NCBI GenBank assembly: GCA_024743315.1
Contig: JANSWU010000006.1
Span: forward strand, 62,001 to 126,000
DNA length: 64,000 bases
Source of the DNA: Hyphomonadaceae bacterium
GTDB taxonomy: Bacteria; Pseudomonadota; Alphaproteobacteria; Caulobacterales; Hyphomonadaceae
Direction: 5' to 3'
Under the pieces are notes generated by a model. The model was not told the DNA's origin. It searched no databases and worked only from the letters and a program-made list of their open reading frames with translations. Of this stretch, positions 19,214 through 45,435 are shown one piece after another (position 1 is the stretch's first letter; every line of letters begins with the position of its first letter). The translations under genes were made by a program, and so were the position numbers.

Positions 19214-21850
19214 TTGTCGACGATATTTATAAGTCATAGCAGTTCAGATGATAGAATAGCCACAGAATTTCATCGATGGCTTATAGATAACGGGTTCAAG
19301 GACACATTTATTGATCATCATACCATTCTTGGTGGCGAACGATGGAAAGAAGCACTTCGAAGAGCTTCATCCACGGCACGGGTAACTATTTGCCTCGTAA
19401 CGCCCAGCTGGCTGGAATCGTCGGTATGTTTTGGTGAATTCGAAGTTTCTTGGCTAATGGGGAAACGCACAGTCCCAATATATTTGCTCAACAGCGACCA
19501 TGAACTTTCCGATACTGCGCTTCAAAGGCTCTCGAGAGTTAATGCAGAAGACCAGGGAGTTGACGGAACATGCTTTATTGATGGGCAAAATGGCCGGCTG
19601 AATTTTTCCTTGGACGAAGAGCGCGCGAACTTGATCCTGAGCGGACTCAGAGCGGCAGGCGCCTCGACCGATGTCGGATTAGACCCTTGCGCATTCGCGG
19701 TGGAATCGAACCAACGGCCATCTCCTTTTCCTGGATTGCGGGCTTATGGTGATGACGATGCTGATGCTGCTATTTTTTTTGGTCGCTCCAGAGAAATCGC
19801 TGAAATACTCGAAATGCTCAGAAGAATGCGTGCCTCGAAGGAAACGCATCCGCTCGTCTTGTTCGGTGCTTCTGGAGCGGGGAAATCATCATTATTGCGT
19901 GCGGGCGTCATTCCTCGTTTGAGACGAGAGGTTCCAGCCTGGATAACTCTCAGAGCGTTTCGGCCGGGGTCTGATCCGCTTTTCAACTTTGCAGAAGCGA
20001 TTTCTACAACCCTTCTCGACTACGGTCAGTTGCACGCGAGTGGCGTAATTAAAAGCAACCTGCTTGAAGCTTGGCGAAAAGAAAACGCACAGCGGGATGA
20101 GGCTACCCGATCAGGCGTACTTGAAGCTTTAGAAGGGTACGTCTCCCAACTTCGGCTCGCAGCTGGCAGACCGAATGCGACCGTTTTGATGTCCGTCGAT
20201 CAAGCTGAAGAACTCGTTAGAGCTGGTGGCGAAAGCGGTGATGCGTTCAGCGATTACATAAAAGCGGCATTGGTTGACCAGAGCAATTGGCAACTGGTTT
20301 TCACTATAAGAACGGACAGTTTTTCGGAGCTCCAAGAAAGCAGTAAGTTTTCAGGAATTGAAACCCGCGGCTATGACCTAAGAGCCATGCCGGTATTCAG
20401 ATTTGATGACGTCATTAAAAAGCCAGCCGAACGATACGGAATAACTATAGCAGACAAATTAATAGACCGGCTGATTGAGGATTCACCAGGAAGCGATGCG
20501 TTACCATTGTTGGCTTTCGCGTTGGAACGTCTCTGGAGACAGTTTTCGGGAAAAGGTGAGCTGAAGCTGCAAGACTATGAAACGATGGGTGGGTTGTCCG
20601 GATTGATCGAGGACGCCGCGGAGCGTGCGCTTGCTGGAACATCTCCGAGTGACAAAGACGCTCTGCTACAGCGAATTCGCCCTAAAAGTAAAATCCTTGG
20701 CGTAGCGGAGAACGCTTTCGTTCCATCACTGGCGGATGTAAACGACGAAGGGAAGGCAATTCGGAGAGTTGCGAGTTGGAATAGCTTTGATCCTGAGCAG
20801 CAAGAACTATTACAACACTTTGACGCTTGGCGCCTAGTGGTTCGTCGTGGCGGCGAAATCGACACAGTAGAAGTAGCGCATGAGGCTCTATTCCGAGAGT
20901 GGAGCCGATTGCGCAGTTGGTTAGAGCCGGAACGTGACCGGCTGGAACTTCTGAGAGGCCTCCAATCAGCGGCGGCGTCCTGGAGCAAAAGTAACCAATC
21001 AGCGGAGTACCTAACGCATTTTGGATCAAGATTGCGGGCAGCGGAGCATCTACGGCGCAACCCTAAGTATGTCGATCAAATTAGCGCCAACCAACTCGAC
21101 TACCTTGCTCAATGCAGAAAGACTGAGCGGAAAAACCTCAGAAGGCGGAATCTCCTTCAGCTTACAGTCGTCGCCACACTACTGCTTTTTGCCACCAGTC
21201 TGATTGCGTTCATGAACCGCGAAACTGTGATTCCGCTTGTTTCAGCACAATTAAATTTTCGTCCTCATGTCCAGTCCTCAAAAACTCTCATGGGTCTGCA
21301 CGAAGGAGAATCTTTTTTCGACTGCGCACCCACCTCGAATAATTGCCCAGAAATGCTCGTAACGACCGATGGCGCTCATCCAAATCTCCCAATATCACGT
21401 GTTGCTGTATCCCGGCACAAAATTACCTTCGATAATTGGAAAGCCTGCGTGCGAAATGGCGGATGCCAAAGTCTCCCAGAACCGATCGGCAGCGGTCAGG
21501 ACAGTGGTTCCGATCCGGTGGTAAACGTTAGTTGGCTTGATGTGAACGAATACACGTACTGGCTTTCTCAAATGACCGGTAAAAAGTATCGCCTATTGTC
21601 CGAGTCAGAATGGCTTCATCTAACTGCTTCAACCGAAGGATTTTCAATTTCTAATCAAGAGATATGGGAGTGGGTACAGGACTGCGGAGGGGACCCTGCT
21701 GATCGTCCTTTAGACGGTTCGGCGCGGGAGACCGTTCCATGCACTGCGAGGGTCCGCGTTGCGATTGGGCAACGAACTAGAGCAATAAGTAACGCCTCCA
21801 GCCGTCGAACGGATTTAGGGTTTCGAGTCGCCCATTCTATTGAGGGCTAG
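19214..21850 (+). CDS. TIR - STAND NTPase - membrane helix - FGE-like domain protein
   Basis: The 878-residue protein starts at TTG (GGGGAA upstream), giving the TIR start STIFISHSSSDD. TIR spans about 1-140, with the putative NADase Glu in CFGEFEVSW. A novel-STAND-type NTPase follows (about 165-560): GLRAYGDDDADAAIFFGR, Walker A GASGAGKSS (about 218) and Walker B VLMSVDQAEELV. A helical segment leads to a membrane helix (about 648-667) and a C-terminal formylglycine-generating-enzyme-like domain (about 690-875; INxVSWLDVNEY-type region VVNVSWLDVNEYTYW and LLSESEW). The FGE domain is short and lacks the catalytic Cys pair, so it is probably a ligand-binding module. STAND proteins switch on by oligomerising when a signal is sensed; the likely output is TIR NAD+ cleavage. 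Confidence 0.9.
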   Translation: MSTIFISHSSSDDRIATEFHRWLIDNGFKDTFIDHHTILGGERWKEALRRASSTARVTICLVTPSWLESSVCFGEFEVSWLMGKRTVPIYLLNSDHELSDTALQRLSRVNAEDQGVDGTCFIDGQNGRLNFSLDEERANLILSGLRAAGASTDVGLDPCAFAVESNQRPSPFPGLRAYGDDDADAAIFFGRSREIAEILEMLRRMRASKETHPLVLFGASGAGKSSLLRAGVIPRLRREVPAWITLRAFRPGSDPLFNFAEAISTTLLDYGQLHASGVIKSNLLEAWRKENAQRDEATRSGVLEALEGYVSQLRLAAGRPNATVLMSVDQAEELVRAGGESGDAFSDYIKAALVDQSNWQLVFTIRTDSFSELQESSKFSGIETRGYDLRAMPVFRFDDVIKKPAERYGITIADKLIDRLIEDSPGSDALPLLAFALERLWRQFSGKGELKLQDYETMGGLSGLIEDAAERALAGTSPSDKDALLQRIRPKSKILGVAENAFVPSLADVNDEGKAIRRVASWNSFDPEQQELLQHFDAWRLVVRRGGEIDTVEVAHEALFREWSRLRSWLEPERDRLELLRGLQSAAASWSKSNQSAEYLTHFGSRLRAAEHLRRNPKYVDQISANQLDYLAQCRKTERKNLRRRNLLQLTVVATLLLFATSLIAFMNRETVIPLVSAQLNFRPHVQSSKTLMGLHEGESFFDCAPTSNNCPEMLVTTDGAHPNLPISRVAVSRHKITFDNWKACVRNGGCQSLPEPIGSGQDSGSDPVVNVSWLDVNEYTYWLSQMTGKKYRLLSESEWLHLTASTEGFSISNQEIWEWVQDCGGDPADRPLDGSARETVPCTARVRVAIGQRTRAISNASSRRTDLGFRVAHSIEG

Positions 21851-21981
21851 CGACCGGACCCAAAATTACTTCTGTCGCGTCACGTTGAGCTCAACTTTAA
21901 TTGCGAAAAACTAAATCCTCATATGCGTATATGTTTGTGTACACATCGCAAGCATCGCAAAGGAACCGCAAATCAGAGGCT

Positions 21982-22392: not shown

Positions 22393-22419
22393 GTCTCCAC
22401 CCTATGCTGCGATCTACGA

Positions 22420-23736
22420 TTATGGTTCGAGCTCCGATAACCTTTCTTGCGCCCAACGATTTCCCTGGTCAGCGGCTAACTTATACAGTCGCGCAGCTTT
22501 TTTCCTATCGATCAACACCCCTCCACGTCCGCTCTCATAAAGATATCCGAGGTCAGCTTGCGCATACATATTCCCTTGCTCTGCAGCGAGTGTGTATAAA
22601 CGTACTGCCTCCTCAACATCCTTCTGAAGACTTCCTCGACCATCGCGGTACATTGCAGCGAGATTAGCTCTGGCACCGGCGTTGCCCTGCTGCGCCGCCA
22701 ATTTATAAAGCTGGGCCGCTTGCGTTTCATCCTTTGCCAAGCCTCCGCGTCCTCGCTCGTACATAAACCCAAGATCAGACTGCGCAAACGTGTTGCCCTG
22801 ATCTGCCGCCAATTTGAAAAGGCGTACGGCCTCGTTCTCATTCTGATCTAATCCACCGCGACCATCTCGATGCATGATTGCCAGATTAGCTTGGGCGCCG
22901 GCATTGCCTTGGTCGGCCGCAAGCTTGTACAACCGCACAGCCTCCTTATCATCTTTTGGCGCTCCTCCACGACCACACGCGTACATGAAACCGAGATTCG
23001 CCGTAGCGCTAACGTTGCCTTGATTTGCTGCCAGTTCGTAGAGACGCACCGCTTCCCTATCGTTTTGTGGCAATCCGCCACGTCCGAATTCGTAATGCCA
23101 AGCGATTTGATAAAGCGCGACAGGGTCACCGTCGATTGCGTTACGCCAATGATTCTTGAGATTTTGCGATAATCCTGAGGGAGGTTGTTGCGGCAATGCA
23201 CCTGCGGTCTGGCGTTCATTACGAGACTCCAAGGTTGCCCCTGGTGTGAGTGCCTCGCCCAATGCAAATTGCGATAGCGATGGCGCCCCGTAACCTCGCC
23301 AGTCCTCATCCAGTTCTCGGAGCCGATTGAAATCCATTGTGGGATCGCGCTCGAGTCGACGCGCAACATCGCCAAGCAGTCGATCCAAAACATGGCTGCG
23401 AGGAGCCCCATCCCAGTCAATCAGGTTGATTGTATCCGCCAAGGCGAAATCATCCGGAAGATCAGTGCTTTCAATCCGGCACGGCAGGTATTTACCGGTC
23501 TGCACAGCCTCTTTGGCCTCCCTGTTCACCCAATCACTCGCTTTCGCCATGCTGCACCAAAGCACAAGAATGATCTGAGCTTCAGCCATTTCGGTGTGAA
23601 GTCGTCGTTCAAAATTCTCCCCAGGTATGAGACCGTAATCGTACCAAACCTTATAACCATATGCCCCCAGAACTTTCGCCAAGTGTCGTGCTGCAGGGCG
23701 TCGTTCGCTTTTGTAGGAAACAAAGATATCTGCCAT
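22420..23736 (-). CDS. TIR domain - Sel1 repeat protein (soluble)
   Basis: The 438-residue protein has an N-terminal TIR domain (1 to about 130; ADIFVSYKSERR, YGLIPGENF and the Glu-bearing DWVNREAKEAV). A linker leads to six full Sel1-like repeats of 36-37 residues plus a partial seventh (about 195-438), each with the pattern LGxMYxxGRGGxxKDxxEAVRLYKLAADQG. No membrane helix is seen, which distinguishes it from the TIR-Sel1 proteins further right. Sel1 repeats form a superhelical binding surface, so the layout is sensor plus NADase-like effector. The repeats are very regular, suggesting recent internal duplication. A 136-residue protein of unknown function follows after 27 bp. Confidence 0.92.
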   Translation of the reverse strand: MADIFVSYKSERRPAARHLAKVLGAYGYKVWYDYGLIPGENFERRLHTEMAEAQIILVLWCSMAKASDWVNREAKEAVQTGKYLPCRIESTDLPDDFALADTINLIDWDGAPRSHVLDRLLGDVARRLERDPTMDFNRLRELDEDWRGYGAPSLSQFALGEALTPGATLESRNERQTAGALPQQPPSGLSQNLKNHWRNAIDGDPVALYQIAWHYEFGRGGLPQNDREAVRLYELAANQGNVSATANLGFMYACGRGGAPKDDKEAVRLYKLAADQGNAGAQANLAIMHRDGRGGLDQNENEAVRLFKLAADQGNTFAQSDLGFMYERGRGGLAKDETQAAQLYKLAAQQGNAGARANLAAMYRDGRGSLQKDVEEAVRLYTLAAEQGNMYAQADLGYLYESGRGGVLIDRKKAARLYKLAADQGNRWAQERLSELEP

Positions 23737-23929: not shown

Positions 23930-25123
23930 TTATCGTTCAAGTTCTTTGATTATTCGATTGACGATATCGGCTGCGTCTTGATGGTAAGTCTCAAACGTTA
24001 TCTTTCGACGGCTTTGTTTTTTAAGCACTTGCCTGACAGCTTCTGGGAAGCGCTCATCATTTGGCCATGCGTGATGGTCAACGAGAACAGGTAGTATCAC
24101 TTTTGGCGGTTTAGCGGATAGAGCTTCTTCGAATTCATAAAGGACCATGTCCTCCGGGTTCGAAGTTAGGCTTTTTATATTATCTTCACTCGCCCATTGA
24201 GGACCGAAAAGAGGAATGAAGACCCGAGCAGATTTCAATGCGTTGTCGAGTTCTGCGTCCCAATCTGTCGTTTCGCGAATAGTACGATGATCAAGAAAAA
24301 CCTTCTCTAGTCCAAATGCCATTGACAACCGGTCGTGCAGCGCTGCGGCCGCCCAAGCGGAGTCATTTCTGCGATAGCTGATAAAAATCTCTGTTTGGTT
24401 CGAGGTACTGTGCGTTGCAGGCGCTTTTATCCGCCGCTCTTCTTCGGCCCCCAATCCCATGGGCTCGCCGAATATATCAGTTGCTTTACTCCACACCTCT
24501 TCAAAGTGGTCATTTAAATGGCGATAAAGCTCATTGCTGGACGAAGCAGAAAACCCCACTTGATGGCGTTGAGAGGTATATAGCCTCACGAATATCTTAT
24601 CATCGAGAATCACGCACATTGCTGGCACGTAATTCGGCACAACTCTCATTCTAACATAGCCCATCCGGTCTGCGAGTTCAGGTTCCGAAAAAATATCCTG
24701 CAGGGTGGTTGCAGTGCCTTTCAAGAGTTCTTTGTGACGTTGTTTGGTAATGAGGATGTCAGATCCCAAAATTAGTAGCTCGGCGAAGGTATCTGATACA
24801 GACTGTCCATGATCGCTATCTACGACCGCGTTGAGCACATTATAGGTCCGTTCGAGGTTTGTTGCCTTTAGCAAAGTTGCAGCGTCGGCATCGGTTCGAG
24901 ACTTTAGACGTGTGATCTGTGTGTCCCAGGCCAACACCTCAACCTCGAAATCACTAGCCAGATAAATACTCAAGTCTTCTATTAGGCGAGTGGAGGTATT
25001 CCCAAAATTGAAACCATATAGGCGAAGTTTGCGAACACCGTTTTGGGATGAACGCGCATGATCAAGAATGCGCCGTCGCATCTCTGTTGAGCCCTCGAAT
25101 ATCTCCAGTTCATGACTTGCCAT
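23930..25123 (-). CDS. PLD-like domain - C-terminal TIR protein
   Basis: Here the TIR domain is C-terminal (about 245-397; EIFISYRRNDSAWAA, VFLDHRTI and a candidate catalytic Glu in LYEFEEAL). The N-terminal 225 residues resemble a phospholipase-D-like fold (VRKLRLYGFNFGNTS, VEVLAWDT, a central strand CVILDDKIFVRLY), but no HKD catalytic motif is present, so it is probably a non-catalytic sensor. The same kind of domain seems fused to the NDT-like protein at 26329-27387. It is monocistronic or alone on the minus strand. The protein appears soluble with no signal peptide. Confidence 0.85.
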   Translation of the reverse strand: MASHELEIFEGSTEMRRRILDHARSSQNGVRKLRLYGFNFGNTSTRLIEDLSIYLASDFEVEVLAWDTQITRLKSRTDADAATLLKATNLERTYNVLNAVVDSDHGQSVSDTFAELLILGSDILITKQRHKELLKGTATTLQDIFSEPELADRMGYVRMRVVPNYVPAMCVILDDKIFVRLYTSQRHQVGFSASSSNELYRHLNDHFEEVWSKATDIFGEPMGLGAEEERRIKAPATHSTSNQTEIFISYRRNDSAWAAAALHDRLSMAFGLEKVFLDHRTIRETTDWDAELDNALKSARVFIPLFGPQWASEDNIKSLTSNPEDMVLYEFEEALSAKPPKVILPVLVDHHAWPNDERFPEAVRQVLKKQSRRKITFETYHQDAADIVNRIIKELER

Positions 25124-26328: not shown

Positions 26329-27387
26329 CTATTTCTTTGTTTTGGTCGGTTTGATCCTATTTGCGTTCTCCCAAAGGAAGACGAACTCTTCTTTCATAGT
26401 GTCGAAGTAGGCGCTATTTCGTTTAGCGCTGATGAATGGGCTACGCATAGTGCCTCGGGAAACAAGATACGGAACCGATATCGCTGCGTTCTCAGTGAAA
26501 ATTGCCTGATATCCTAGATTATATCGATCTAGGGTCTTCACCTTCGGTTTCAGGCCTTTCAATGAACCCAAGAAATTCATCCAATCCGTCGGCATCCTTC
26601 CGGCGGCATTATGGACCTGCTTGGCTTCGGTTTTGGTTTTCATGGAAAGTGGAAGCGCGGCGTTGTTTTGTCCCATCAAAATGACCCGCACCTCCAGTCG
26701 CTCGTCCCGCTTATTAGCCGATCTGGTTGCGTTTCCCGCGCTTTTCAGTGCTTTCGCAAAAGACTCATTCATGAGCCATCCACTGAGCGAGTAACCCATT
26801 AGATAGACATAGCGTCGCGCCGATCTCACTATCTCGATTGCGACGTCCTCACCTTCAGATGCGCGATCACCAATAGTTTGAAGTGGATCACCGAGAGGAA
26901 CCAGGTGAGGTGCGAACGGCACGATGGGCCGCCGGGAGTTTTCTGCCACGGCATTCATGGATGATCTTAGTAATTTCGCATATGTCCCGTTGAAAATGCT
27001 TTGCGCTTCGAAATCGTAGTAGATGATGCGTTGATCTTTAATATCAAATGGCGCAGCAAATCCCTTTTCCAAAAGAAGAATTACCGGCTTTGCAGCCGAT
27101 TGAGCGATCGCCAATTCGTAGTACACGTTCGGGTTGGACTCTGTGAGAACAGCTATAATCAAATCAGCGGCGAGGATATCCTCATAGATTTGATCCGTGA
27201 TCTTCCCCGGCGCTGTTTTATGATCACCGCGTTCGGGATGATAGACGGGGCCTCCTTGACCAAATGAGTCAGCACAAGCAGGCTTTATTAAGCATTCATA
27301 GACCGTATCTGCGTGCCTGCGTGTTTCGCTTCCCTCCGCACCAATAGGACTAATCACGAAACAGCGTAGCGCTTCAGATTTACTCAT
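26329..27387 (-). CDS. Nucleoside deoxyribosyltransferase-fold (TIR-like) effector with PLD-like domain
   Basis: Residues about 8-135 match the NDT/DRHyd-like fold related to TIR: CFVISPIGAEGSETRRHAD, then ADLIIAVLTESNPNVYYELA with the conserved Glu of the active site, then AAKPVILL. Such domains cleave N-glycosidic bonds of nucleotides and are found as effectors in conflict systems. Residues about 165-340 resemble a PLD-like fold without HKD (RRYVYLMGYSLSGWLM, VRVILMGQN, ending EEFVFLWENA), as in the TIR protein at 23930-25123. The 352-residue protein is soluble. The two neighbours thus appear to pair one sensor type with two different nucleotide-attacking effectors. Confidence 0.85.
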   Translation of the reverse strand: MSKSEALRCFVISPIGAEGSETRRHADTVYECLIKPACADSFGQGGPVYHPERGDHKTAPGKITDQIYEDILAADLIIAVLTESNPNVYYELAIAQSAAKPVILLLEKGFAAPFDIKDQRIIYYDFEAQSIFNGTYAKLLRSSMNAVAENSRRPIVPFAPHLVPLGDPLQTIGDRASEGEDVAIEIVRSARRYVYLMGYSLSGWLMNESFAKALKSAGNATRSANKRDERLEVRVILMGQNNAALPLSMKTKTEAKQVHNAAGRMPTDWMNFLGSLKGLKPKVKTLDRYNLGYQAIFTENAAISVPYLVSRGTMRSPFISAKRNSAYFDTMKEEFVFLWENANRIKPTKTKK

Positions 27388-27479: not shown

Positions 27480-29135
27480 CTAAAACGCACCGTTCCAGCC
27501 CTCGGGCCGCAACTTTATGGCCGAACGGATTGAGTGAACGCTGATGCCCTCATTGCATCCGCGATGGACAATTTCCCGATGATGAACCGCAAGCGCTTGG
27601 AGGGTCTTCCAAGACAAGACCGGGCTTCCGGAATTGCCTTCCATAGTCGGGCACTTGTACCAAATTCGCTCAGGAGCACCTTCAGCCCGAGGAACATCAA
27701 TGTCTTCGACGCTTAGATTCTCGATGGCGAGATGCAGGAGGTCAGATCCCATTGGGTGTCCGATTACGGTCACGGGCTCATAGGTATCATCTTCGGGCGC
27801 GACGAGACTTGTGATGGGTTCCGTCTGCGACATGCTTCGCGCCCCGTCCGGCAAGTCCTGCATTCTAAAGATCGTGATATCGTGATCCTCTCTTTTAGAG
27901 CACCACAGCACTTCTCCCAACTTGACCTGTCCAGAGCCCGGAGACTGTGTGAAACGAACTGCGGCTTGAGACGGCTTCAACGTCGTGCCTCCATAGGCAC
28001 TTACAACGTGCTCATTCGTTACAAATACGTGGCCAATGGATGCCCAATCAGGGTTCAATTCTTCACCACGGAAAACCGTGCCCGTGCCAAACCTCGAGGT
28101 TAGATCACCCCCACCTAAGCGCTCAACACGGCCAATGCATTGGCTCAACTGAATCAGTCTTTGAACCCAACCGATTGGAACCGGGCGACCTCCAAACAGT
28201 CCTTCGTAACCGTCAGTGGCCAACCTCTGACGCATTCCGATCAACTCAGACTGCGAAAGTTCAACTCTACTCCCTGGTGTCTGCAACAAATCAGCTGTGA
28301 TTTCATCATATATGGCCTTCAACTCACGTTCGGGTCGGGTCTCGATCTGCCAGAGCTCCATCAATTGTCGCCTTGCAGAATTGAGCGCAAAGGCATTGCT
28401 AGTCTTTTCACAAAAGCGCCCAAAGGCCTTAAGCGCTAAATCAAACTGGCCAAGCGCGAGATAGGCCTCTCCGAGTGACGCAAGTGGCCAAGGATCATCC
28501 GAGTTCTCGGCAAATCGTGCGCCCGCCAACTCGATCACCGCGTTTGCGAGCTGTTGGTTCATCTCTAAATCTATTTGACGGTCAAACGTAGCCGCTTCGA
28601 TCTCATTCAGCGCTAGAAGATTGCAAGCATGCCAATAGCCGGTGTGCTCGGAAAGCTCCCATCCTTGGAGATATGCGCGTCTTGAGGATTCTAGCAATTC
28701 GAGATCGGCTCTGCCCTGCTGTTTGGTTTCAATGAAGAGCTGCTTAAAAGCGCGACCTTCAAGGCCCGAAAATTCCAACAAATCATCACGCGTTACACCA
28801 ATTTGATCTACGGCCGCAGAGATCTCTATGATGGCGGTGGAGAGTTGGCCAAGTTCGATAAGCGCTTGGACGCGCATTTGAGCGGCAAGGGTTGGGACAA
28901 TGCCCCGATGTTTGAGTTCATTCGCAGCGAAACACAGAAGTGCGTGCGCCCGTGTGTCTTTTAGCATTTTCAACAACGCCCGCGCGGGTGCGGAGGCGTT
29001 GCTTCCCAAACCATCGAGTTCAGATACAATGGATAAGAGTTCGGTAACTCCGAATTCTTCCAAGCTCTCGTCTAGGCGCTCTTGAAAAGATCGCAGGCGT
29101 TCTTCGACTCCTTCGATTTCTTCAAATACGGTCAT
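27480..29135 (-). CDS. Trypsin-like serine protease with helical N-terminal domain
   Basis: The 551-residue protein has an alpha-helical, TPR-like N-terminal half (about 1-290; SLGEAYLALGQFDLALKAF is a clear TPR) and a C-terminal trypsin-like peptidase (about 340-545). The catalytic triad is intact: His in TNEHVVSAYGG (about 374), Asp in EDHDITIF (about 418) and Ser in EGNSGSPV (about 502). There is no signal peptide, so it acts in the cytoplasm. Cytosolic trypsin-like domains with TPR partners are known effectors in prokaryotic conflict systems. Its start codon overlaps the stop of the upstream muramidase gene (ATGA), so the two are translationally coupled. The cleavage target is unknown. 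Confidence 0.9.
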   Translation of the reverse strand: MTVFEEIEGVEERLRSFQERLDESLEEFGVTELLSIVSELDGLGSNASAPARALLKMLKDTRAHALLCFAANELKHRGIVPTLAAQMRVQALIELGQLSTAIIEISAAVDQIGVTRDDLLEFSGLEGRAFKQLFIETKQQGRADLELLESSRRAYLQGWELSEHTGYWHACNLLALNEIEAATFDRQIDLEMNQQLANAVIELAGARFAENSDDPWPLASLGEAYLALGQFDLALKAFGRFCEKTSNAFALNSARRQLMELWQIETRPERELKAIYDEITADLLQTPGSRVELSQSELIGMRQRLATDGYEGLFGGRPVPIGWVQRLIQLSQCIGRVERLGGGDLTSRFGTGTVFRGEELNPDWASIGHVFVTNEHVVSAYGGTTLKPSQAAVRFTQSPGSGQVKLGEVLWCSKREDHDITIFRMQDLPDGARSMSQTEPITSLVAPEDDTYEPVTVIGHPMGSDLLHLAIENLSVEDIDVPRAEGAPERIWYKCPTMEGNSGSPVLSWKTLQALAVHHREIVHRGCNEGISVHSIRSAIKLRPEGWNGAF

Positions 29136-31520: not shown

Positions 31521-31660
31521 CAACTTCCTCATTACAAACACTAATTGAAGCTTGAGTGAATACCGACACAAAGCGTCTCGACAAGCCCGCCGTCCGATAC
31601 ACGTAAAATCCCATTGTTAGACCTATTCACGAGAGTGACGTTCTAATCTTCATCCAAAGA

Positions 31661-35313: not shown

Positions 35314-35349
35314 CCGTTCCCGCACCAGAAAATGCTCACTTTCTTGCAC

Positions 35350-35685
35350 CTAACGATAATGAGACTTTCGTGTCACCCCGAGTGATACGCGAAACCCTTG
35401 AAAACCGCGAAGCTAAACAAATAACGGAGCGCGATCTTATTGAAGATTCACCACCAAGATTTGTTCTCGAATATCTTCAATAGATAAAAACGTACAGGGC
35501 GCTTTGTTGCGTGGGGTCGACAGACTATCGAGTATTTAAAAATCATAATCGAAGCAAATATCGCCAACCCTCCCGTCAAGGATGGCACCCCTGGGTTCAT
35601 CACACAAAATACAACCGACGTGTTGACGGTCTTTGTTCAAGCTGGCGTAACAAAACTGGGGAAGGCATTTGAGGCACGCGGGCTA
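35350..35685. other. 336-bp divergent intergenic region between two TIR genes
   Basis: Nothing codes convincingly here. An in-frame upstream extension of the plus-strand TIR gene reaches back to about 35620, but it does not resemble the other TIR starts. The stretch must hold promoters for the two divergent genes. I saw no convincing operator. Confidence 0.5.
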
Positions 35686-36606
35686 TTGTTTTTCATTTCT
35701 TATAGAAGACAGGACACCCAATATGAGGCGGATCGGCTTTGCAGCTTCCTAAGACCGTTATTCGCCGAACCTGACAAAAACATATTCATTGATATCGATA
35801 ATATACCACTCGGCGTGGACTTCGAGGAGCATTTAAAATCGCAGGTTGCGAGATGCGAAATATTGCTCGCGTTGATCGGGAAAGGTTGGCTTGAAGCCAC
35901 CGACCCGAAGACGGGGTTGCGTCGGTTAGACCTACAGAATGATTTCGTGCGCATCGAAATTAGCTCGGCTCTTCAACGTGGAATTAGGGTTATCCCTATT
36001 CTCTTCGATGGTGCCGAAGTCCCAAGTGAAGTTGATTTACCCACCCCTCTCAAGCCACTATCCAAACGTCACGGGATCCAAATAAATCGCATCAGCTTCG
36101 AGAGTGACGTGATGCGGCTATTAAATGGACTCAACATAAAAGCGGGGTCCTCTGGAGAACCTGCATCGCCTCTACGACCGACACATGAGAGCTCAAAGAA
36201 AGAGATTAACCAGACAAATTACTCAACTTTCCTCAATGAGTTTTTGTTGCCAGTACTCAAATGCCTTCAAAAGGATAACGCTATCTGGTCGAGGATCCTG
36301 GGTGTTCGAAAGGACGCCTCAACTTTGGAATTCAAAATCGCTGCACAAATCGAAAAAGAAGAGATATTTCCGAACCACCAAAAGGTCATCGATTTGATCG
36401 GCCTTTGGAGACACGAGCCGATCGTAGATGATGACACTGAGTTAGCAGAAGTTTTAGATGCCTATCTGGATCATGTCACGGTTTACAAAACGATCAGACA
36501 AACGGGTGATCTAAACTCACTCCCGATCGACGTAGGTGCGCCGTGGCCAGATGCAATTTATGCGATTCTGCAAAAACGTGTGCAAGAACACCAGCAGAGC
36601 AAGTAA
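35686..36606 (+). CDS. TIR domain protein with unknown C-terminal domain
   Basis: TTG at 35686 is the best start: it gives FFISYRRQDTQYEAD directly at the N-terminus, as in its paralogues, and GAGGC lies upstream. The frame stays open 22 codons further left. TIR spans about 1-150 (IFIDIDNIPLGVDF, DFVRIEISSAL with Glu, PILFDGAEVP). The TIR is very close to those at 33079-35313 and 36657-38135. Residues about 175-306 form a soluble, helical domain that I do not recognise, with no membrane helix. The gene therefore keeps the TIR but has a different C-terminal module from its neighbours. Confidence 0.88.
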   Translation: MFFISYRRQDTQYEADRLCSFLRPLFAEPDKNIFIDIDNIPLGVDFEEHLKSQVARCEILLALIGKGWLEATDPKTGLRRLDLQNDFVRIEISSALQRGIRVIPILFDGAEVPSEVDLPTPLKPLSKRHGIQINRISFESDVMRLLNGLNIKAGSSGEPASPLRPTHESSKKEINQTNYSTFLNEFLLPVLKCLQKDNAIWSRILGVRKDASTLEFKIAAQIEKEEIFPNHQKVIDLIGLWRHEPIVDDDTELAEVLDAYLDHVTVYKTIRQTGDLNSLPIDVGAPWPDAIYAILQKRVQEHQQSK

Positions 36607-36656: not shown

Positions 36657-38135
36657 TCAGTCAGAGTCTTTTTGCCAAACGCAATCCCTCATTTCGCTCG
36701 TTTTGAGCCAATCGGTAGAACTTGGTTGGATGATACGTAGATCGTCATCCTTTAGCAGGATATCATAGTCATCTGCGAGTGACGTCGTTCGAAACCGGCC
36801 AGGTGCAACAGTCTGAAGTGGATCACCGATTGAAGCTTGGTCAATCCCTATAAGATTTACCCATCGGTACTCACCCAACAGCATATCGAACTTCTTAATT
36901 ATCACTCTCTCGGAGGTGTTTCCCTGAGAAAATGATAGACGAGGACATCCGGCGTCGCTTGACCGCCATGTTCCTAGCAAAGCAGAGCGTGGGATTGTTG
37001 GGGTAGTATTTTGAGTTGCAGGATCCTGCACCGCATTTGTGGGGCCAGCCTGCTCAGCGGTCGAGCGGTTCGCATCTCCTTCTGCTTCGTTGACTTCCCT
37101 CGTGCTACGACCTGAGATCACGTCGAGGGGTAGTCGACCCTCGTTCTCCACGGTCGTGTATAAGTCCCCACTCCCAAGGGTCGTGTCTGTGGCTTGCCTC
37201 ACAGGGTCTTCTTGCATATCGATCAGATCGGTCGGATGCGCCGGCACGCTATCCTGCGAAAACATCCCATTCGTCATCAACACTACTGTAGACAGCGCCA
37301 CCACAACTATTGGTATCGCCCATAAAGCCAATTTCGTTGTTGCATTTTCGCTGTCGGTTGTTTGAGCTCTTTTTTGCGCACGACGCGCCACCTGTTCTAA
37401 AGCGCGAAACACGCCGCGCGGATTTTGCGCGAACCAAAACGCTATTGCATCAGCATCAGATTGATCAACTTTGGACCAACTCGCTAACTGCTCCAACCTT
37501 TCCTGGGCGGTCGTAGTTTCTGGTCCATCGGAGAACCTATTTAGGAATTCGCGGTATTCAGTTTCATCAAGACTTTTCTCGAGAGACGAGAAAACCGCTG
37601 CGCGTTCTTTGGCCTCAGCGTTTTGCAAACTGGCTTTACCAGCCCAGGTTGATCGATTGCGAAAGCGCAGATCACTTGAAATTGGAAGTCCGTTGATCAT
37701 TCTCGCCACGTCAGCATCAAAAGATAGCCTTTGCACCGGAACCCCGTTTCGCCTTGAAAGAGGTTTTAGTTCCTCTGGCAACTGATCAGGGGACGGAAAT
37801 GGCGCTCCATCAAGAAGCACTGGCACTACCGGTATTCCGCGCTTTAGCGCCGCAGCAATTTCAATTCGAACAAAGTCATTCGGTTCATTGATGCGTGGCT
37901 TCCCGCTCACAGGATCTGCTTGCAACCATCGATCGCCAATTAATGCAAGCAGCACCTCACATTGACTCACTTTACTGCTAAGGTGCTCAATGAAATCAAC
38001 ACCGAAAGGAATGTTGTCAATATCGATGAAAATATCGTGCTTGGGGTCGTCGACATATTGCTTGAGTGCGGTATGCAGCCGATCCGCTTGGTGCTGACTG
38101 TCCTCTCTTCTATAGCTGATAAAGAACTTCGCCAT
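36657..38135 (-). CDS. TIR - membrane helix - unknown C-terminal domain protein
   Basis: The 492-residue protein opens with AKFFISYRREDSQHQAD. TIR covers about 1-155 (IFIDIDNIPFGVDF, DFVRIEIAAAL with Glu, PVLLDG). A juxta-TIR helical module (about 185-250, SLDETEYREFLNRF) matches that of the gene at 33079-35313. A membrane helix lies at about 263-285. The following Thr/Asn-rich linker and terminal domain (about 385-492; LLGTWRSSDAG, then a Trp-rich end with DCVW) look like a small beta-sheet domain of lipocalin-like style and would be periplasmic. It lacks Sel1 repeats. This is a variant sensor on the same TIR chassis. Confidence 0.88.
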   Translation of the reverse strand: MAKFFISYRREDSQHQADRLHTALKQYVDDPKHDIFIDIDNIPFGVDFIEHLSSKVSQCEVLLALIGDRWLQADPVSGKPRINEPNDFVRIEIAAALKRGIPVVPVLLDGAPFPSPDQLPEELKPLSRRNGVPVQRLSFDADVARMINGLPISSDLRFRNRSTWAGKASLQNAEAKERAAVFSSLEKSLDETEYREFLNRFSDGPETTTAQERLEQLASWSKVDQSDADAIAFWFAQNPRGVFRALEQVARRAQKRAQTTDSENATTKLALWAIPIVVVALSTVVLMTNGMFSQDSVPAHPTDLIDMQEDPVRQATDTTLGSGDLYTTVENEGRLPLDVISGRSTREVNEAEGDANRSTAEQAGPTNAVQDPATQNTTPTIPRSALLGTWRSSDAGCPRLSFSQGNTSERVIIKKFDMLLGEYRWVNLIGIDQASIGDPLQTVAPGRFRTTSLADDYDILLKDDDLRIIQPSSTDWLKTSEMRDCVWQKDSD

Positions 38136-38423: not shown

Positions 38424-40160
38424 TCAGTCAAGTGGCTTAACTGGTTTGTCCTCCCAATAACCAACACACCAAGCGATTGATTTCCGGTCTTGTGGGTCAC
38501 TGCATCGGATCTGTTCGTGAATCGGTATCCGACGACTTTCGTACTCAGATTTCAAACGCGCGACCAGATCGCCCAGTTCTGCATCATTTGTTGCGAGTGA
38601 CACATTCCGAATTTCTCGTGCGGCAGCCCTGGTCAAGGCGTCAAAATGTGGATTTGGTTCGTATACCCAAAAAGCGTCTTCGCGTATTGAGTAAAAATCT
38701 TTTCGAAGGGCTTCCTCCAAGTATTGTTTGCCCAATTCGATATTGCGCTGAACGTGCTCACCGTCGATGTAATATTTTGCCAATGCCAGACTGGCGAGCC
38801 TATGACCGAATTTGCGTCCGTCCTGATAGTGCTCAAGTGCGCGACCGTGGTTGACAGGAACCCCACCTATTCCATTCTCTGCCATCCAACCAAGTTGAGT
38901 ATGGGCTAGCGGTGTTATAGACGGATTCACAATGGACGTAATGAAATAGCTCCTGGCAAGCTCTTCGTCGCGCGCTACACCAATACCGTTTGCGAGCCTC
39001 ACGCCAGTATTATAGCGTGAGCGATTGTAACCTTCTTCCGCTGCTTTAAACCCGATTCTGTAGGCTTTCTCCAGATCGACAGGCTCCCTCACTCCGGCGG
39101 CTGCAAATCGGGCCAGCGCGCTTCGCGCAGTCGCCTCCCCTCTTCGATCGGCCCTCTCAAAGTAATCTCGAGCTAAATCAAAATCCTGCCCTGCCTGTGC
39201 TTCCCCATCAACATGTCTCAAACCAACGCTCATCAAGGCTCTTAAACTGCCAAGCTCCACCGACCTGCGAACATGCTCCATGCCCGCGTTCGGTTCGCTT
39301 CCGGCGAAGTAGGCGCGGGAGAGGTTTAGGTGCATTCGCGGGCTATTAGGAACCGCATCTACGGCTTTGGTACAGGCCTCTTGCGCCGCCAGAGGGTCCT
39401 CTCTAACTTCGGAAATTGTTTTCCCGTCGATATCTCGCGGAAGCGTACGGTCCAAGTGATGACCCGCGAGGGCATCACACTGCCTCATGATCTCAAGCGT
39501 CTCCTGATCCGTAACAATTGGTTCCGTACCTTTGGTTGGAGCGAAAGTAATTCCTTGTGGGGTATGATCTTGTTCAGCGGTTGAAGACGATAGGCCCCAA
39601 TAAATAGCCGCCATCACAAAAATAGATATTCCAGCAAAGGCAGCCAAAGCTAATGTGTTCGATCCGGAGAGAAAGCCCGCAAGTCGACCGCCTTGCTTAG
39701 TTTGACTTTTGATTGTCAGTTTTTCTAGCAAGCGGTCTACGTCATGATCGAATGTCCGCAGCTGCACGTGTTCTGCATTGCGCAATGCCAGTTCAGAAAT
39801 CTCATTTGGAAGTTCAGCTTTAGATGGCATCTCAGCGCCGTCGATAAGCACGGGAACCACCGGGATCCCACGGGCTAGCGCTTCTGCAATTTCAACTCGG
39901 ACAAAATCGTCGTCGTCATCGATGCGTCTGGTCAAGCCGCCGTCTGCACTGGCGGTTAACCAGAGGCGTCCGATAATTACGAGTAACAAATCGCAATTTT
40001 GAACTGCGTTAGAGATATGCTCGGAAAAATCGACCCCCGCGGGAATTGAATCGATGTCGATAAAGACCTCAGTTTCAGGGGCGCTGCGCGCGATGGTTTG
40101 CGCCAACCGCTGTGTAGGCCATTTTGAGTCTTCCCGCCGATAACTAAGGAATACTTTCAT
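38424..40160 (-). CDS. TIR - membrane helix - Sel1-repeat protein (578 aa)
   Basis: TIR covers 1 to about 155 (KVFLSYRREDSKWP, VFIDIDSIPAGVDF, DFVRVEIAEALARGI with Glu, PVLIDGAEMP). A membrane helix lies at about 172-192, much nearer the TIR than in the gene at 33079-35313. The extracytoplasmic part starts with CDALAGHHLDRTLPRD and NSPRMHLNLSRAYFAG, continues with Sel1-like repeats and ends with a tail containing FWVYEPNPHF and RRIPIHEQIRC. The CDxLAGH start segment and the tail motifs recur in two other genes, so they are conserved parts of one sensor family. It is separated from the next TIR gene upstream by 160 bp and is probably transcribed on its own or with it. Confidence 0.9.
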   Translation of the reverse strand: MKVFLSYRREDSKWPTQRLAQTIARSAPETEVFIDIDSIPAGVDFSEHISNAVQNCDLLLVIIGRLWLTASADGGLTRRIDDDDDFVRVEIAEALARGIPVVPVLIDGAEMPSKAELPNEISELALRNAEHVQLRTFDHDVDRLLEKLTIKSQTKQGGRLAGFLSGSNTLALAAFAGISIFVMAAIYWGLSSSTAEQDHTPQGITFAPTKGTEPIVTDQETLEIMRQCDALAGHHLDRTLPRDIDGKTISEVREDPLAAQEACTKAVDAVPNSPRMHLNLSRAYFAGSEPNAGMEHVRRSVELGSLRALMSVGLRHVDGEAQAGQDFDLARDYFERADRRGEATARSALARFAAAGVREPVDLEKAYRIGFKAAEEGYNRSRYNTGVRLANGIGVARDEELARSYFITSIVNPSITPLAHTQLGWMAENGIGGVPVNHGRALEHYQDGRKFGHRLASLALAKYYIDGEHVQRNIELGKQYLEEALRKDFYSIREDAFWVYEPNPHFDALTRAAAREIRNVSLATNDAELGDLVARLKSEYESRRIPIHEQIRCSDPQDRKSIAWCVGYWEDKPVKPLD

Positions 40161-40320: not shown

Positions 40321-41991
40321 TCATTTCACATATGAGCCTATGGCTGGTTGGAGGTATATCCTTCTTGGGAAGCGTCCACTATCACGACCTTGTATAAGTG
40401 ATGAGAGCGCTTCCCTTAGTTCGGGGTGAGGCTGCATTTCCAACAACACCTCACAGGCTTCTATGAAACGGTCGATCATTTCGATTTCACTGGGATTAAT
40501 TTCGTAGACCCAGTAAACGTCGTCTAAAATTGGATTAAACTCAGAACTTAAATACTTCGACAGAGCTTCCGCCATAGTGTCCAACGCGTCAGTCGTTGAA
40601 CGTGCATTAGAGGTTTCTAGTCTTGCAAGATTTAGACTGGCGAGACGATATTGTCCTTCGGATGCAAGCTCATAAAACCTCATCGCGGCGGGTATGTCGC
40701 TTGAAACCCCGATGCCGGTCTCGAGAAGCCACCCGAAAAAATTTTGGGCAACCGGGTCAGTTGTATTTTGTGTAGCGGTTTGACAGAAGCTCGCGCCGGT
40801 CGCGGTATCTTTTGATACCCCTATTCCATGAATACTTTGCACGCACACATTATATTGTGAACGGCTAAGGCCACGTTTTGCTGCGTCCAAATTGTAGCTA
40901 TACGCGGATTGTTTGTCGATCGGTTCCGTTATCCCTAATGAGGGAAATACTGAGAGAAGTCCGATCGCGCGCGGATCACCCATGCTCGCAGCTTCGTCTA
41001 GCAATTGCCTTGCTTTATCGTAATCGTTCGCCACTCCCCTGCCCTCCATAAATCTGATGGCGAGAGTCACGGTGGCCGAAACAGAACCGAGATCGCTTGC
41101 AGCATTTAAGAAATCTACTTGGTAAGTTCGCTCTCCTCTGGCCGCTTGAATTCGAGCAAACAGCCATAATAACTCGGGATTGGATGGGTCGCTTTGCAGA
41201 GCACTACCGCAGCTCTCTTCTGCCTTTTCCGCCACAGCTCCTAACTCCGTCACCGTCTTACCGATCACTCCAGCCGGTAAGTTTGGATCAAGATTGTGCC
41301 CTGCAAGCTGATAGCATTCTTGTACCAGTTTAGATTGGAGATCCTCGGCATTCTGCTTTAACGGACCGATCTTGGATCGAACTAATTCGATCGCGATGCC
41401 TTCAGGCGTTTGAACTTCGCTCTGCGAGCCAGATGTTGTTTGAGAATTCCACGCGAACAACGAAGCTATTGCAAGCGCACCGATCGCGACCGCGGCGACA
41501 ACTGAGTGTTGACCGACCCGGCTCAGAAGGGTCTCCTTAGTTATTCCAACTTTCTTAAATAACCTCTGACAATCAAGCTCGAAGCTTTGATTGTTTATGA
41601 CTTCTCCATTTCGGCGGAGAAGCCCCGAGATGCTCTCAGGAATAGAGTCCGCTGAAGGCAGTTGTGCACCATCAACTAACGTGGGCACCACTTTAATGTT
41701 CCGAGAAAGCGCTTCTTCGATCTCAAGTCTAACAAAATCATCGGGTTCGAAAATTCTGCGAAGACCCGTGTCAGCGTTCGACTCCGAAACCCATCTGGTG
41801 CCGATTACAGCGATTAAAATGTCTGTCTGATTCAGCTTCTCTCTAATATAGTCACCATAATCAATTCCCGCGGGGATCGAGTCGACGTCGATGAATATGC
41901 TTTCTTGCGGGATCAACTTGGATAATTCTGCGCTGATCTTTTGCGCAGGCCAATAGGAATCGCTTCGGCGATAACTAATGAAAACGTTCAT
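40321..41991 (-). CDS. TIR - membrane helix - Sel1-repeat protein (556 aa)
   Basis: TIR covers 1 to about 160 (NVFISYRRSDSYWPAQ, IFIDVDSIPAGIDY, DFVRLEIEEALSRNI with Glu, PTLVDGAQLP). A membrane helix follows at about 180-198 (VVAAVAIGALAIASLFAW). The external part keeps the family start CYQLAGHNLDPNLPAG, then Sel1-like repeats (MEGRGVANDYDKARQLLDEA is the clearest, cited as MEGRGVANDYDKARQL). Its tail is more divergent, with YWVYEINPSEI kept but the final HExIxC motif lost. It is the most diverged member of the trio, which could reflect a different ligand or early decay. Confidence 0.9.
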   Translation of the reverse strand: MNVFISYRRSDSYWPAQKISAELSKLIPQESIFIDVDSIPAGIDYGDYIREKLNQTDILIAVIGTRWVSESNADTGLRRIFEPDDFVRLEIEEALSRNIKVVPTLVDGAQLPSADSIPESISGLLRRNGEVINNQSFELDCQRLFKKVGITKETLLSRVGQHSVVAAVAIGALAIASLFAWNSQTTSGSQSEVQTPEGIAIELVRSKIGPLKQNAEDLQSKLVQECYQLAGHNLDPNLPAGVIGKTVTELGAVAEKAEESCGSALQSDPSNPELLWLFARIQAARGERTYQVDFLNAASDLGSVSATVTLAIRFMEGRGVANDYDKARQLLDEAASMGDPRAIGLLSVFPSLGITEPIDKQSAYSYNLDAAKRGLSRSQYNVCVQSIHGIGVSKDTATGASFCQTATQNTTDPVAQNFFGWLLETGIGVSSDIPAAMRFYELASEGQYRLASLNLARLETSNARSTTDALDTMAEALSKYLSSEFNPILDDVYWVYEINPSEIEMIDRFIEACEVLLEMQPHPELREALSSLIQGRDSGRFPRRIYLQPAIGSYVK

Positions 41992-43079: not shown

Positions 43080-43749
43080 TCTCACCACATCGCGCAAGGG
43101 AGAGCCGACCCTTGGCATTATTGGGCGAGGTCTGCCCTGCCTGTCCGTCAACACAGCCGCAGACTAAGTACGGATTGGCGATCGAGCGCATCAGCACAAC
43201 ACTCATAAAGGGCTGGTGGCCGGTCGATTATGCTGCTTTGATAAAAACTACCCGCGCCAACTACACCGAACCAGAACGATTTGTAGAGTTCAGATTCTAC
43301 ACTCAAGACGATGATCGGTTGGATGATCAAAAATCGACGTATCGATATTGTGCAGGATAGCAAGCGAGTAGATTTTATTAGAGCGGCTTACTCGGGGCGA
43401 CTTTGGGACTGTCAGCAAAACGCCGACCGGCCTACGTTTACCCGTTCCAATGTATCAGCAGCCCGATGATGGCTGTGGCATGAGTTGTCATATGCATGGA
43501 GTAACAGGTCCAGTAGCGCCTTTGGGATATCAGAACGCGCTCAAGCTTGAGAAGTATTCGATGGTCGAAGCGATGCGAGTGCTTTCGAATATGAACAGAT
43601 AGTTCAAAACAAATACGGCCACATTTACTCGTGCATTCGGAACAGGCAAAGCACAGGCGTTTGATACAACCAGGACTTCTCTCATTAATGACAGGTCGGC
43701 AGTTTTAGATATAGAAACCCTATGCTGACTTCGGGTGGAGATTTTCAGT
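43080..43749. other. 670-bp stretch without a convincing gene
   Basis: Several short open frames occur (for example 43076-43360 and one of about 79 codons near 43365-43602), but none has a good start, ribosome-binding site and recognisable product together. The stretch carries a copy of the dispersed motif at 43116-43131. It may be decayed mobile-element DNA plus the promoter of the TIR-FGE gene. Confidence 0.5.
43116..43131 (+). repeat. Dispersed motif CATTATTGGGCGAGGT
   Basis: One mismatch (T for C) from the copy at 18459-18474. Followed by TCTGCCCTGCC, a decayed version of the second hairpin arm seen at 2398-2407. Confidence 0.4.
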
Positions 43750-45435
43750 TTGCCAAAGATATTCATTAGCTACAGGCGCAACGACACTAAGTGGCCCGCG
43801 GAGAAGCTTTATAAGTTCTTAGCCGAAAGGCTGCCCAAAGACGATTTGTTCATGGACTTAGATTCACTCAGTCCAGGAGAAAAATTCGCCGAGAAGATTC
43901 GGGAAGCTCTTAACAAGATCGACATTATGTTAGTGCTCATCGGTCACAAGTGGACAGGTGAAAGCGACACAAGCCCGTCTCGAATGGAAGATGAGGCCGA
44001 TTTCGTTCGTCTGGAAATCGAAACCGCCATCGAACGAAATGTGCGTCTCATTCCGGTTCTTGTAGACGGTGCAGAAATACCCACGATGGAGATTTTACCT
44101 CTTTCAATTTCAGAACTGGTCGAGCACCAAGCGGAGTATTTGACTCAACGGACATTTGACTACGATGTTGCGAGGATAGCTAAGTCGATAGCGCCGGAGT
44201 ATTTTCGTGAACGAGGACTCTTTCATCGACCTGGTGCGTCGATAATGGCAATATTTGCGATAATCGCTGTCTCACTAATCATCGCTACCGTTTTTCGGGC
44301 CGAAGATCCTTCCCCGACGGATGTAAGTATTGAACAGATTATGCAAAATTCTGATCTTGCTTATGGCGATCTAACAAAGCGCCTATACGAAATAGGTTTT
44401 TTGGCATCCCCTGATCCGGAGCAAGACACTATAAGCGTTGAAACAAGCGTTGAAGCGATCCGTGCAGCCACAAAGTATCAAGCGCCGCCGATTGACTTAG
44501 TTCAGCGCGATCCTCGTCAGATAGAAACCTTTCTAAACTTTTTGCTGAGTCGGTATCAGCCGAGTGTAGATTTACCGGATATGGTGAGCACAAGCTCCAA
44601 CGGGTTCAGAGTGTTCACCGATTGCAGCTTTTGTCCAGAAATGATCGAGATTCCCGCCGGAACCTTTGAGTTTGGTTCCCCTCGCTCCGAACAATTGCGC
44701 GACCCTGATGAAGCGCCAGCGGTAACAACAGTAATTGCTGATGCTTTTTCAGTTTCCAAGTATGAAATAACCGTCGCTCAATTCGCAGAGTTTGTAAACG
44801 ATACTGGTTATTCACCGCCAGGTCGATGCCGAATTTCCAACGGAGTATCGAGTTGGGAATGGGTGGATGGTTTGAACTATAGAAGCCCAGAAATCGCTAC
44901 TTCAGCAGACCATCCCGTCACTTGCATAGACTGGTATGCCGCACGGGCTTACGCGGTGTGGCTGACACAGAAAACGGGATTTCGTTATAGATTGTTGACT
45001 GAAGTAGAATGGGAATATGCGGCTAAGGGAGAATTCAAGTCTGCTGGATTTGTCCAATCTGAAAACAAGAGTCTTTGCGACGTAGCTAACTTTGCAGACG
45101 CAGAAACTAACTATGATTGGAGATATGATGCCTGCTCTGATGGATATGCAATGACATCGCCTGTGGGCGCGCTTCTGCCGAACGAGTTCGGCCTGCATGA
45201 CATGCTAGGTAACGTATGGGAATGGGTGGAGGATTGCTACGATTTTGATCGCGAACCCGATGCATTACCTTTCACAAGCAAGAACTATTTGTTTTGCACG
45301 GCGGGCGTCACAAAGGGCGGCTCTTGGAGTAGTTATCCGAGTCGAGTCCGCATCGCAAAAAGAAATAATTACTCGCGGTCATTTGCCAGCGATGTTCATG
45401 GATTTCGAGTGGCTCGAAACATAGTTCCTCAGTGA
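43750..45435 (+). CDS. TIR - membrane helix - FGE-like domain protein
   Basis: TTG at 43750 (GGTGGAG upstream) gives PKIFISYRRNDTKWPAE at the N-terminus; a GTG five codons earlier is possible. TIR covers about 1-155 (LFMDLDSLSPGEKF, DFVRLEIETAIERNV with Glu, PVLVDGAEIP). A membrane helix lies at about 165-185. The external C-terminal part is a complete FGE/sulfatase-modifying fold (about 295-560; IEIPAGTFEFGS, ITVAQFAEFV, RLLTEVEWEYAAKG, GLHDMLGNVWEWVED, GGSW). The Cys pair of true FGEs after GGSW is absent (GGSWSSYPSRVRIAKRN), so it probably binds rather than oxidises. It is the rightmost TIR gene. Confidence 0.9.
   Translation: MPKIFISYRRNDTKWPAEKLYKFLAERLPKDDLFMDLDSLSPGEKFAEKIREALNKIDIMLVLIGHKWTGESDTSPSRMEDEADFVRLEIETAIERNVRLIPVLVDGAEIPTMEILPLSISELVEHQAEYLTQRTFDYDVARIAKSIAPEYFRERGLFHRPGASIMAIFAIIAVSLIIATVFRAEDPSPTDVSIEQIMQNSDLAYGDLTKRLYEIGFLASPDPEQDTISVETSVEAIRAATKYQAPPIDLVQRDPRQIETFLNFLLSRYQPSVDLPDMVSTSSNGFRVFTDCSFCPEMIEIPAGTFEFGSPRSEQLRDPDEAPAVTTVIADAFSVSKYEITVAQFAEFVNDTGYSPPGRCRISNGVSSWEWVDGLNYRSPEIATSADHPVTCIDWYAARAYAVWLTQKTGFRYRLLTEVEWEYAAKGEFKSAGFVQSENKSLCDVANFADAETNYDWRYDACSDGYAMTSPVGALLPNEFGLHDMLGNVWEWVEDCYDFDREPDALPFTSKNYLFCTAGVTKGGSWSSYPSRVRIAKRNNYSRSFASDVHGFRVARNIVPQ

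Follow-up and report, generated by a model that had tools for sequence, protein, structure and literature searches.

The window analysed here, a 64,000-nucleotide stretch of DNA from a marine Hyphomonadaceae bacterium, carries an island that on balance, and with modest confidence, we read as an acquired collection of TIR receptors that stand alone and in part face the envelope. The first-pass annotation had reported ten TIR genes within about 26 kb. All ten are present as open frames where they were first placed, between 19.2 and 45.4 kb, and each scores above the Pfam cut-off (gathering score) for TIR_2; two frames start earlier than first given, at 35620 (for 35686) and 43735 (for 43750). 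Naming each gene by the first coordinate of its frame, the TIR_2 E-values are 3e-13 (19214), 1e-17 (22420), 6e-14 (23930), 4e-14 (32224), 5e-9 (33079), 4e-9 (35620), 1e-10 (36657), 5e-12 (38424), 6e-8 (40321) and 7e-12 (43735). The whole genome (3.31 Mb, the window lying in its contig C2) yields 15 TIR_2 matches, of which the array holds ten, and hence two thirds of them fall in less than 1% of the genome.

At first pass, absence of the catalytic Glu from structural models was named as grounds for dropping the reading; in the sequence alignment, Phe, Ser, Asp, Trp and Pro residues and the catalytic-position Glu are invariant in 10/10. Seven of the proteins (32224, 33079, 35620, 36657, 38424, 40321 and 43735) form a core TIR subfamily, the other six members being 36–51% identical to 38424. 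Compared with solved structures, the core TIR profile matches 19 sequences at E≤0.01, all of them SARM1 or its worm orthologue TIR-1 (best 2.7e-14), and its catalytic-position Glu aligns with the SARM1 Glu. An AlphaFold model of 38424 (mean pLDDT 74.6 from a six-sequence alignment) agrees, its TIR part resembling the SARM1 TIR in Foldseek (TMt 0.76–0.80) and its C-terminal part Sel1 proteins. As judged by the best match among solved structures and by model superposition, the core TIRs are SARM1-like. SARM1 itself is reported to branch within a bacterial lineage in a passage of a 2026 preprint (PMC13142454). The likeness extends to the TIR profile, with its Glu aligned, and to the superposed model, whereas the overall arrangement differs: the island TIR is N-terminal and is followed by a helix and a far-side module, and no ARM or SAM domain appears in Pfam scans. 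The ten TIRs are putative NADases, an activity we infer from sequence; a passage in PMC7075850 states that the frequency of the catalytic Glu need not track TIR activity.

The modules joined to these TIRs vary along the island. The leftmost gene (19214..21850, + strand, 878 aa) encodes a TIR, an nSTAND1 domain (Pfam E 2.3e-76) that marks it as an nSTAND1 STAND NTPase, a predicted transmembrane helix (residues 647–665 by hydropathy) and an FGE-like C terminus. It is followed by a TIR–Sel1 repeat protein in which no transmembrane helix was found (22420..23736, − strand, 438 aa) and by a protein whose TIR lies behind an unnamed N-terminal domain, again with no such helix found (23930..25123, −, 397 aa) and with two full-length relatives (P0225 and P0226). 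TIR–pYEATS (32224..33021, +, 265 aa) and TIR with an unnamed C-terminal domain (35620..36606, +, 328 aa), both of the core subfamily, also have no transmembrane helix found; the TIR–pYEATS architecture is identical in locus L062 of the same genus. In the remaining five, Pfam and hydropathy place a helix behind the TIR: 33079..35349 (−, 756 aa) has a linker as in 36657, the helix at 345–363 and TPR/Sel1 repeats; 36657..38135 (−, 492 aa) a linker, the helix at 269–287 and an unnamed C-terminal part with two Cys; 38424..40160 (−, 578 aa) and 40321..41991 (−, 556 aa) the helix at 169–187 and 163–181, respectively, followed in both by TPR/Sel1; and 43735..45435 (+, 566 aa) the helix at 169–187 and an FGE module, with eight Cys, all after the helix.

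Pfam thus bears out the modules first proposed as STAND plus FGE (19214), pYEATS (32224), FGE (43735) and Sel1 (22420, 33079, 38424 and 40321). Two other assignments are not borne out. The 'PLD-like' module of 23930 matches no Pfam family and its fold model reaches a mean pLDDT of only 44.6, and for 36657, called lipocalin-like, Pfam shows the TIR alone. The NDT label of 26329..27387 (−, 352 aa) is likewise doubtful, its Pfam E-value of 0.069 being below the cut-off and its PADLOC TIR-effector match weak (1.5e-7), and we list it as a weakly detected TIR/NDT-like relative. A module common to 23930 and 26329 was considered, and profile comparison gave nothing. Interspersed with the TIR genes are a TPR-S and trypsin-like protease (27480..29135, −, 551 aa), which overlaps by four bases a GH108 muramidase with PG_binding_3 (29132..30190, −, 352 aa; NCBIfam holin_dep_muram below cut-off), a CBASS-effector-like patatin phospholipase (30339..31571, −, 410 aa; PADLOC 2.5e-39, NCBIfam CBASS_lipase 110 bits, under the 200-bit cut-off) and a RyR-domain protein (31661..32038, −, 125 aa), all identified by Pfam.

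A single strong hydrophobic helix is present in six of the ten TIR proteins (19214, 33079, 36657, 38424, 40321 and 43735), with mean hydropathy of 2.1–3.0, while five other island proteins peak at 0.9–1.3. In 19214 the helix separates nSTAND1 from FGE, with seven K/R before it and one after; in the other five it comes behind the TIR or a linker and ahead of the module, be that Sel1, FGE or unnamed. For all six the prediction is a cytosolic TIR and a periplasmic C-terminal module (Sel1, FGE or other), a topology that the first-pass annotation had not seen. These calls rest on hydropathy, charge and Cys counts, with a helix threshold of 1.9, at which three of 222 TIR domains were called falsely as against 24 at 1.6. 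In the model of 38424, residues 152–210, helix included, have pLDDT <50. Far-side Cys number six in 19214, four in 33079, two in 36657, four in 38424, five in 40321 and eight in 43735, the odd count making 40321 the exception. nSTAND1 proteins with C-terminal FGE/CLec sensors are described in DGR-linked systems in a passage of PMC10907252; 19214 resembles these in its TIR–nSTAND1–FGE order and differs by the helix between nSTAND1 and FGE, which would place the FGE domain in the periplasm.

The same layout recurs outside the island. Relatives of 36657 are widespread (1345 at E≤1e-10), and we listed 220 TIR-bearing database proteins, leaving out the window copies P0110 and P0111; one listing comprised 120 of those 1345 and the other was drawn from the 7990 candidates sharing most words. 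The TIR lies within the first 80 residues in 195 of the 220 relatives listed, and 119 combine such a TIR with a single helix downstream of it. A further 14 carry two or more helices after the TIR, 86 carry none, and in the last one the only helix comes behind a TIR that lies further into the chain. Within the 119 one-helix relatives listed, K/R are more numerous before the helix in 91, equal in 19 and fewer in nine, so that charge supports a TIR-inside orientation in the 91. Of 118 of these proteins (P0001 also left out), 70 have an even number of far-side Cys, 11 an odd number and 37 no Cys there; collapsed to 40 far-side sequence families, 23 are even, six odd and 11 without Cys (p 0.002). 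Even counts are what periplasmic disulfide bonding would give. Cys parity hence agrees with a periplasmic far side, but the control is not clean, since the non-TIR part of the helix-less relatives is also mostly even (52 even, 24 odd and 10 none). On the TIR side, 97 counts are odd and 15 even, which may reflect one inherited Cys. Some of the relatives called helix-less may nevertheless be exported: among the 27 FGE fusions of this kind, 14 reach a hydropathy maximum of 1.6–1.9, a range that also contains false TIR calls.

Which far-side modules accompany the helix can be read from class lists that were compiled by hand and overlap (for example FGE with OmpA). Exactly one helix is found, among the relatives listed, in 15/16 PASTA, 10/11 Sel1 (a row that keeps P0001 and P0111), 12/17 OmpA, 5/7 PG_binding_1, 2/2 S11 carboxypeptidase/PBP, 1/1 SBP_bac_3, 16/43 FGE and 0/2 PDZ proteins. 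No helix at 1.9 was called in 27/43 FGE, 5/17 OmpA, 2/7 PG_binding_1, 1/16 PASTA, 1/11 Sel1 and 2/2 PDZ proteins. Fusions to NTPase, kinase or caspase domains have exactly one helix in 3/11 of those listed; the TIR is C-terminal in 4/11 rows, and position after the TIR therefore says little there. Domain positions were mapped in ten proteins, and in every one the TIR comes before the module; in the five of these with a known helix position (P0008, P0046, P0064, P0084 and P0103), the module lies beyond the helix. P0112 runs from TIR to peptidase S11, and P0103 from TIR to transglycosylase and transpeptidase.

How bacterial TIR proteins detect threats is, to our knowledge, known for few systems. 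We tentatively propose, as a generalization that may well prove too broad, an extensive class of 'inverted Toll-like receptors' in bacteria, in which a periplasmic module, often peptidoglycan-binding or peptidoglycan-making (PASTA, OmpA, PG_binding, Sel1, FGE, D,D-carboxypeptidase or PBP-type), would be joined to a cytosolic SARM1-like NADase, wall or surface damage would directly trigger NAD+ loss, and the island would be the densest repertoire among the genomes searched. If this is right, bacteria own single-chain receptors that sense the condition of the envelope and respond by depleting NAD+, in a layout shared with animal Toll-like receptors and with a different output. The D,D-carboxypeptidase and PBP-type transglycosylase/transpeptidase fusions would make the trigger directly testable by cell-wall chemistry, and the dense island would offer ten variants in one genome for comparison. 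Toll-like receptors, as a passage of PMC8635717 describes them, are single-pass proteins whose TIR is cytosolic and whose sensor lies across the membrane, which is the arrangement predicted here; the island proteins differ in being TIR-first, the opposite order, and in carrying a TIR that is of the enzyme type by sequence, and the likeness is one of layout and not a claim that the whole receptors are homologous. The leucine-rich repeats of Toll-like receptor ectodomains are absent from Pfam scans of the island frames. The nearest described precedent for a transmembrane helix joined to envelope domains is a remark on iSTAND ternary conflict systems in part of Kaur et al. 2020 (PMC7159879), where PEGA, OmpA, PASTA and Sel1, typically after a transmembrane segment, are noted as effector domains; there such domains belong to vWA-MoxR ternary systems, whereas here they are fused directly to the TIR. 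Nothing found in the literature searched in full text, as far as the passages retrieved extend, reports a bacterial TIR linked by a single helix to domains of the envelope.

The commonest part of the repertoire would be a one-chain receptor made of a cytosolic N-terminal SARM1-like TIR, one helix and a periplasmic module. The module would recognize an attacker (phage or competitor), a polymer of the surface or damage to the envelope; once it is engaged, the TIR domains would gather, as in SARM1, and would cleave NAD+, so that the cell is stopped or killed. Differing modules would stand for differing triggers with the same output, and hence no partner effector gene would be needed. The four members in which no helix was found (22420 with Sel1, 32224 with pYEATS, and 23930 and 35620 with unnamed domains) would survey the cell interior. 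Activation by clustering, these ligands and a role in defence are what we infer for the array. The first-pass idea of a sensor repertoire with a common output survives in its SARM1-like TIRs, retained Glu and exchanged modules, and is altered by the six modules predicted to lie across the membrane.

A second reading takes the proteins for sensors of envelope stress or surface-polymer quality and not for immune receptors; the TIR would then adjust growth whenever the assembly of peptidoglycan or exopolysaccharide goes wrong. Peptidoglycan is the ligand or substrate of many far-side domains (PASTA, OmpA, PG_binding_1, S11 and PBP), the island sits in an exopolysaccharide locus, and the scanned neighbours of solitary relatives are mostly ordinary chromosomal genes. 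We scanned 20 such neighbours, from 12 of 16 loci and chosen from 60 listed. By Pfam, nine of ten carry DXS, TauE, Dus, M23, bactofilin, M13, RecJ, histidine kinase or PLP-enzyme domains and one has none; the M23 peptidase and bactofilin both occur at L048. By PADLOC, nine of the ten others have no match at 1e-6 and one matches mad3/mad8. A defence-island setting of the solitary relatives is hence unsupported in the 20 neighbours scanned, which leaves envelope-stress signalling as open as phage defence for the class. We regard the stress reading as less likely than not. A patchy distribution (21/105 family genomes) resembles defence more than core physiology, and conflict-type genes are also found in the island.

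Thoeris was the other signalling scheme to weigh. The first-pass annotation had taken one or two TIR proteins to be normal for Thoeris, which is not quite right: a passage of PMC11204291 defines the system as one ThsA with one or several ThsB. It was correct that no ThsA partner is visible, as Pfam finds no SIR2, Macro-SLOG or TM-macro ThsA among the 20 island-region frames scanned. A Thoeris-like arrangement, in which many ThsB-type sensors send a nucleotide signal to one unseen effector (the patatin, protease or muramidase), gains something from the several ThsB per ThsA noted in that passage, from the PADLOC ThsB model PDLC00434, which matches several TIRs weakly (best 2.7e-12), and from the effector-like enzymes nearby. 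It is nonetheless improbable. Besides the missing SIR2 or Macro-SLOG gene in the scanned frames, a STALD profile search of the whole genome gave no match, its control being silent too; NCBIfam ThcB4 reaches at most 43.8 bits against a 220-bit cut-off in the three TIRs tested (23930, 35620 and 36657); and relatives lie singly in other genomes. The island shares with Thoeris its TIR sensors, at times several per system (again a passage of PMC11204291), and departs from it in that no ThsA is seen, the core TIR genes are single elsewhere and sensor and TIR are parts of one protein. The best reading is that the array is not Thoeris. Neither is it recognizable as CBASS, since a Pfam scan of the island-region frames detects no family of CD-NTases, though the patatin resembles CBASS lipases.

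Among 398 genomes of the order, the array shows in this one alone, as far as the assemblies reveal. A core TIR match at E≤1e-10 is present in the 21 family genomes mentioned above, with eight in this one (the eighth being 23930) and one to five in the others; at E≤1e-20 a match is present in 40 of the 398 order genomes, counting this one, and no other of the 398 has more than five. This order search scored no more than nine candidates in any genome, and the fragmentation of many assemblies could hide neighbours. Two core matches close together on one contig occur in this genome only among the 398, draft contigs permitting. In the rest of the family the core subfamily occurs at 39 places, and each was inspected as far as contigs allowed: a second strong core match appears at none, and weaker TIR genes of other kinds (≤39.7 bits) appear at four (L047, L050, L054 and L067). 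In 19 named loci there is one TIR gene in 17 and two in two (L016 and L021). One genome of the same genus (G009) has a five-gene TIR island of other make-up, with WD40, FGE and caspase modules. Plasmid spread is unsupported, with one weak match for 36657 among 72,556 plasmid records. A conserved multi-TIR array is accordingly not found in family or order, where relatives show the core TIR singly, though short contigs may hide neighbours. The search for the same islands in related genomes, proposed at first pass, found no conserved co-occurrence among the 398, which is half of what was then named as refuting the reading; this holds for the array and not for the proteins, which occur widely (36657 alone has the 1345 relatives given above).

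A tree of 154 TIRs, in which bootstrap values had not settled, disperses the array. 38424 groups with P0002 (Hyphomonas) beside its near-copy P0001, and a database protein labelled Henriciella sp. is 97% identical to 38424, which makes a Henriciella-like host most likely; 43735 pairs with P0003, with 40321 adjoining; 32224 groups with L062, 35620 with L043 (88/72), 33079 with 36657 (98/45), and 23930 with L068 on a long, unsure branch. Several core TIRs have their closest relative in another genome. The AU test rejects a single tandem expansion in which the seven core TIRs share one origin (p 1.3e-5). Hence most members look collected and not copied in place, and the expanding family first suggested is not simply one family. 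The claim that everything outside the TIR core differs needs a similar correction. The modules do vary, but a 512-aa stretch aligns between 38424 and 40321 at 34% identity, the C-terminal part of 33079 is common to both, and 33079 is 55% identical to 36657 over 250 N-terminal residues reaching well past the TIR. 33079 is a mosaic of a 36657-like front and a 38424-like back, which points to local exchange between neighbours.

These data also bear on whether the island is a plain defence island, in which unrelated TIR and conflict genes were gathered by an integrase, their closeness is meaningless and the membrane TIRs are ordinary abortive-infection genes. Several TIR lineages share the island, patatin, RyR, TPR-S trypsin and pYEATS genes are interspersed, the array is not conserved, and a tyrosine recombinase (46317..47237, +, 306 aa, Pfam) lies at its right edge. 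We think this reading doubtful, since seven of the ten TIRs belong to one subfamily that is uncommon elsewhere in the order and the exchange seen in 33079 joined two neighbours. A repertoire of receptors, collected and partly reshuffled in place, is the account we prefer. Exopolysaccharide genes flank the island on both sides, and genes like those of the right flank adjoin the left-flank gene Wza in some relatives, an observation that also counts for a plain defence island: a 48105-like gene does so in 3/9 genus relatives, with no match there to the window's TIR genes, and a 47269-like gene is also there in two of those three (28–32% identity). One more relative has 48105/47269-like genes about 14 kb from Wza; the other five of the nine give no such match. 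This suggests that the island was inserted in an exopolysaccharide locus, an insertion supported and not proven, as such loci vary. The tyrosine recombinase is matched in 3/29 genus genomes, this one included.

Within the TIR island of the window, two genes at 27480-30190 share a four-base overlap: one encodes a TPR-S/trypsin-like protease (551 aa; 27480..29135, minus strand) and the other a GH108 muramidase with a PG_binding_3 domain (352 aa; 29132..30190, minus strand). Seven further loci of the family were read, and in three of them (L091, L096 and L097) the protease match has an adjoining GH108 match. The GH108 muramidase and the TPR-S/trypsin-like protease could form a lysis unit under protease control.

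Cell-wall enzyme domains are fused to TIR in two related database proteins, the C-terminal part being a D,D-carboxypeptidase (S11) in P0112 and a PBP-type transglycosylase/transpeptidase in P0103. At loci L048 and L053, from two genomes, genes of 405 and 176 aa precede a solitary core TIR gene; a Pfam scan of the two L048 genes identified them as an M23 peptidase and a bactofilin.

At 30339-32038 of the window, a patatin gene resembling the CBASS lipase is followed by a small RyR-domain gene, and no CD-NTase was found among the window genes scanned.

A second multi-TIR island, differing in make-up from that of the window, lies in another genome of the genus (L054; G009:C1:176000-194000), where five TIR genes within ~15 kb carry WD40, FGE and caspase modules.

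At the edge of the window island, a 121-aa open frame (45604-45969) adjoins the tyrosine recombinase gene. Its sole match is to a short stretch within DNA helicase IV, and the frame is possibly a remnant.
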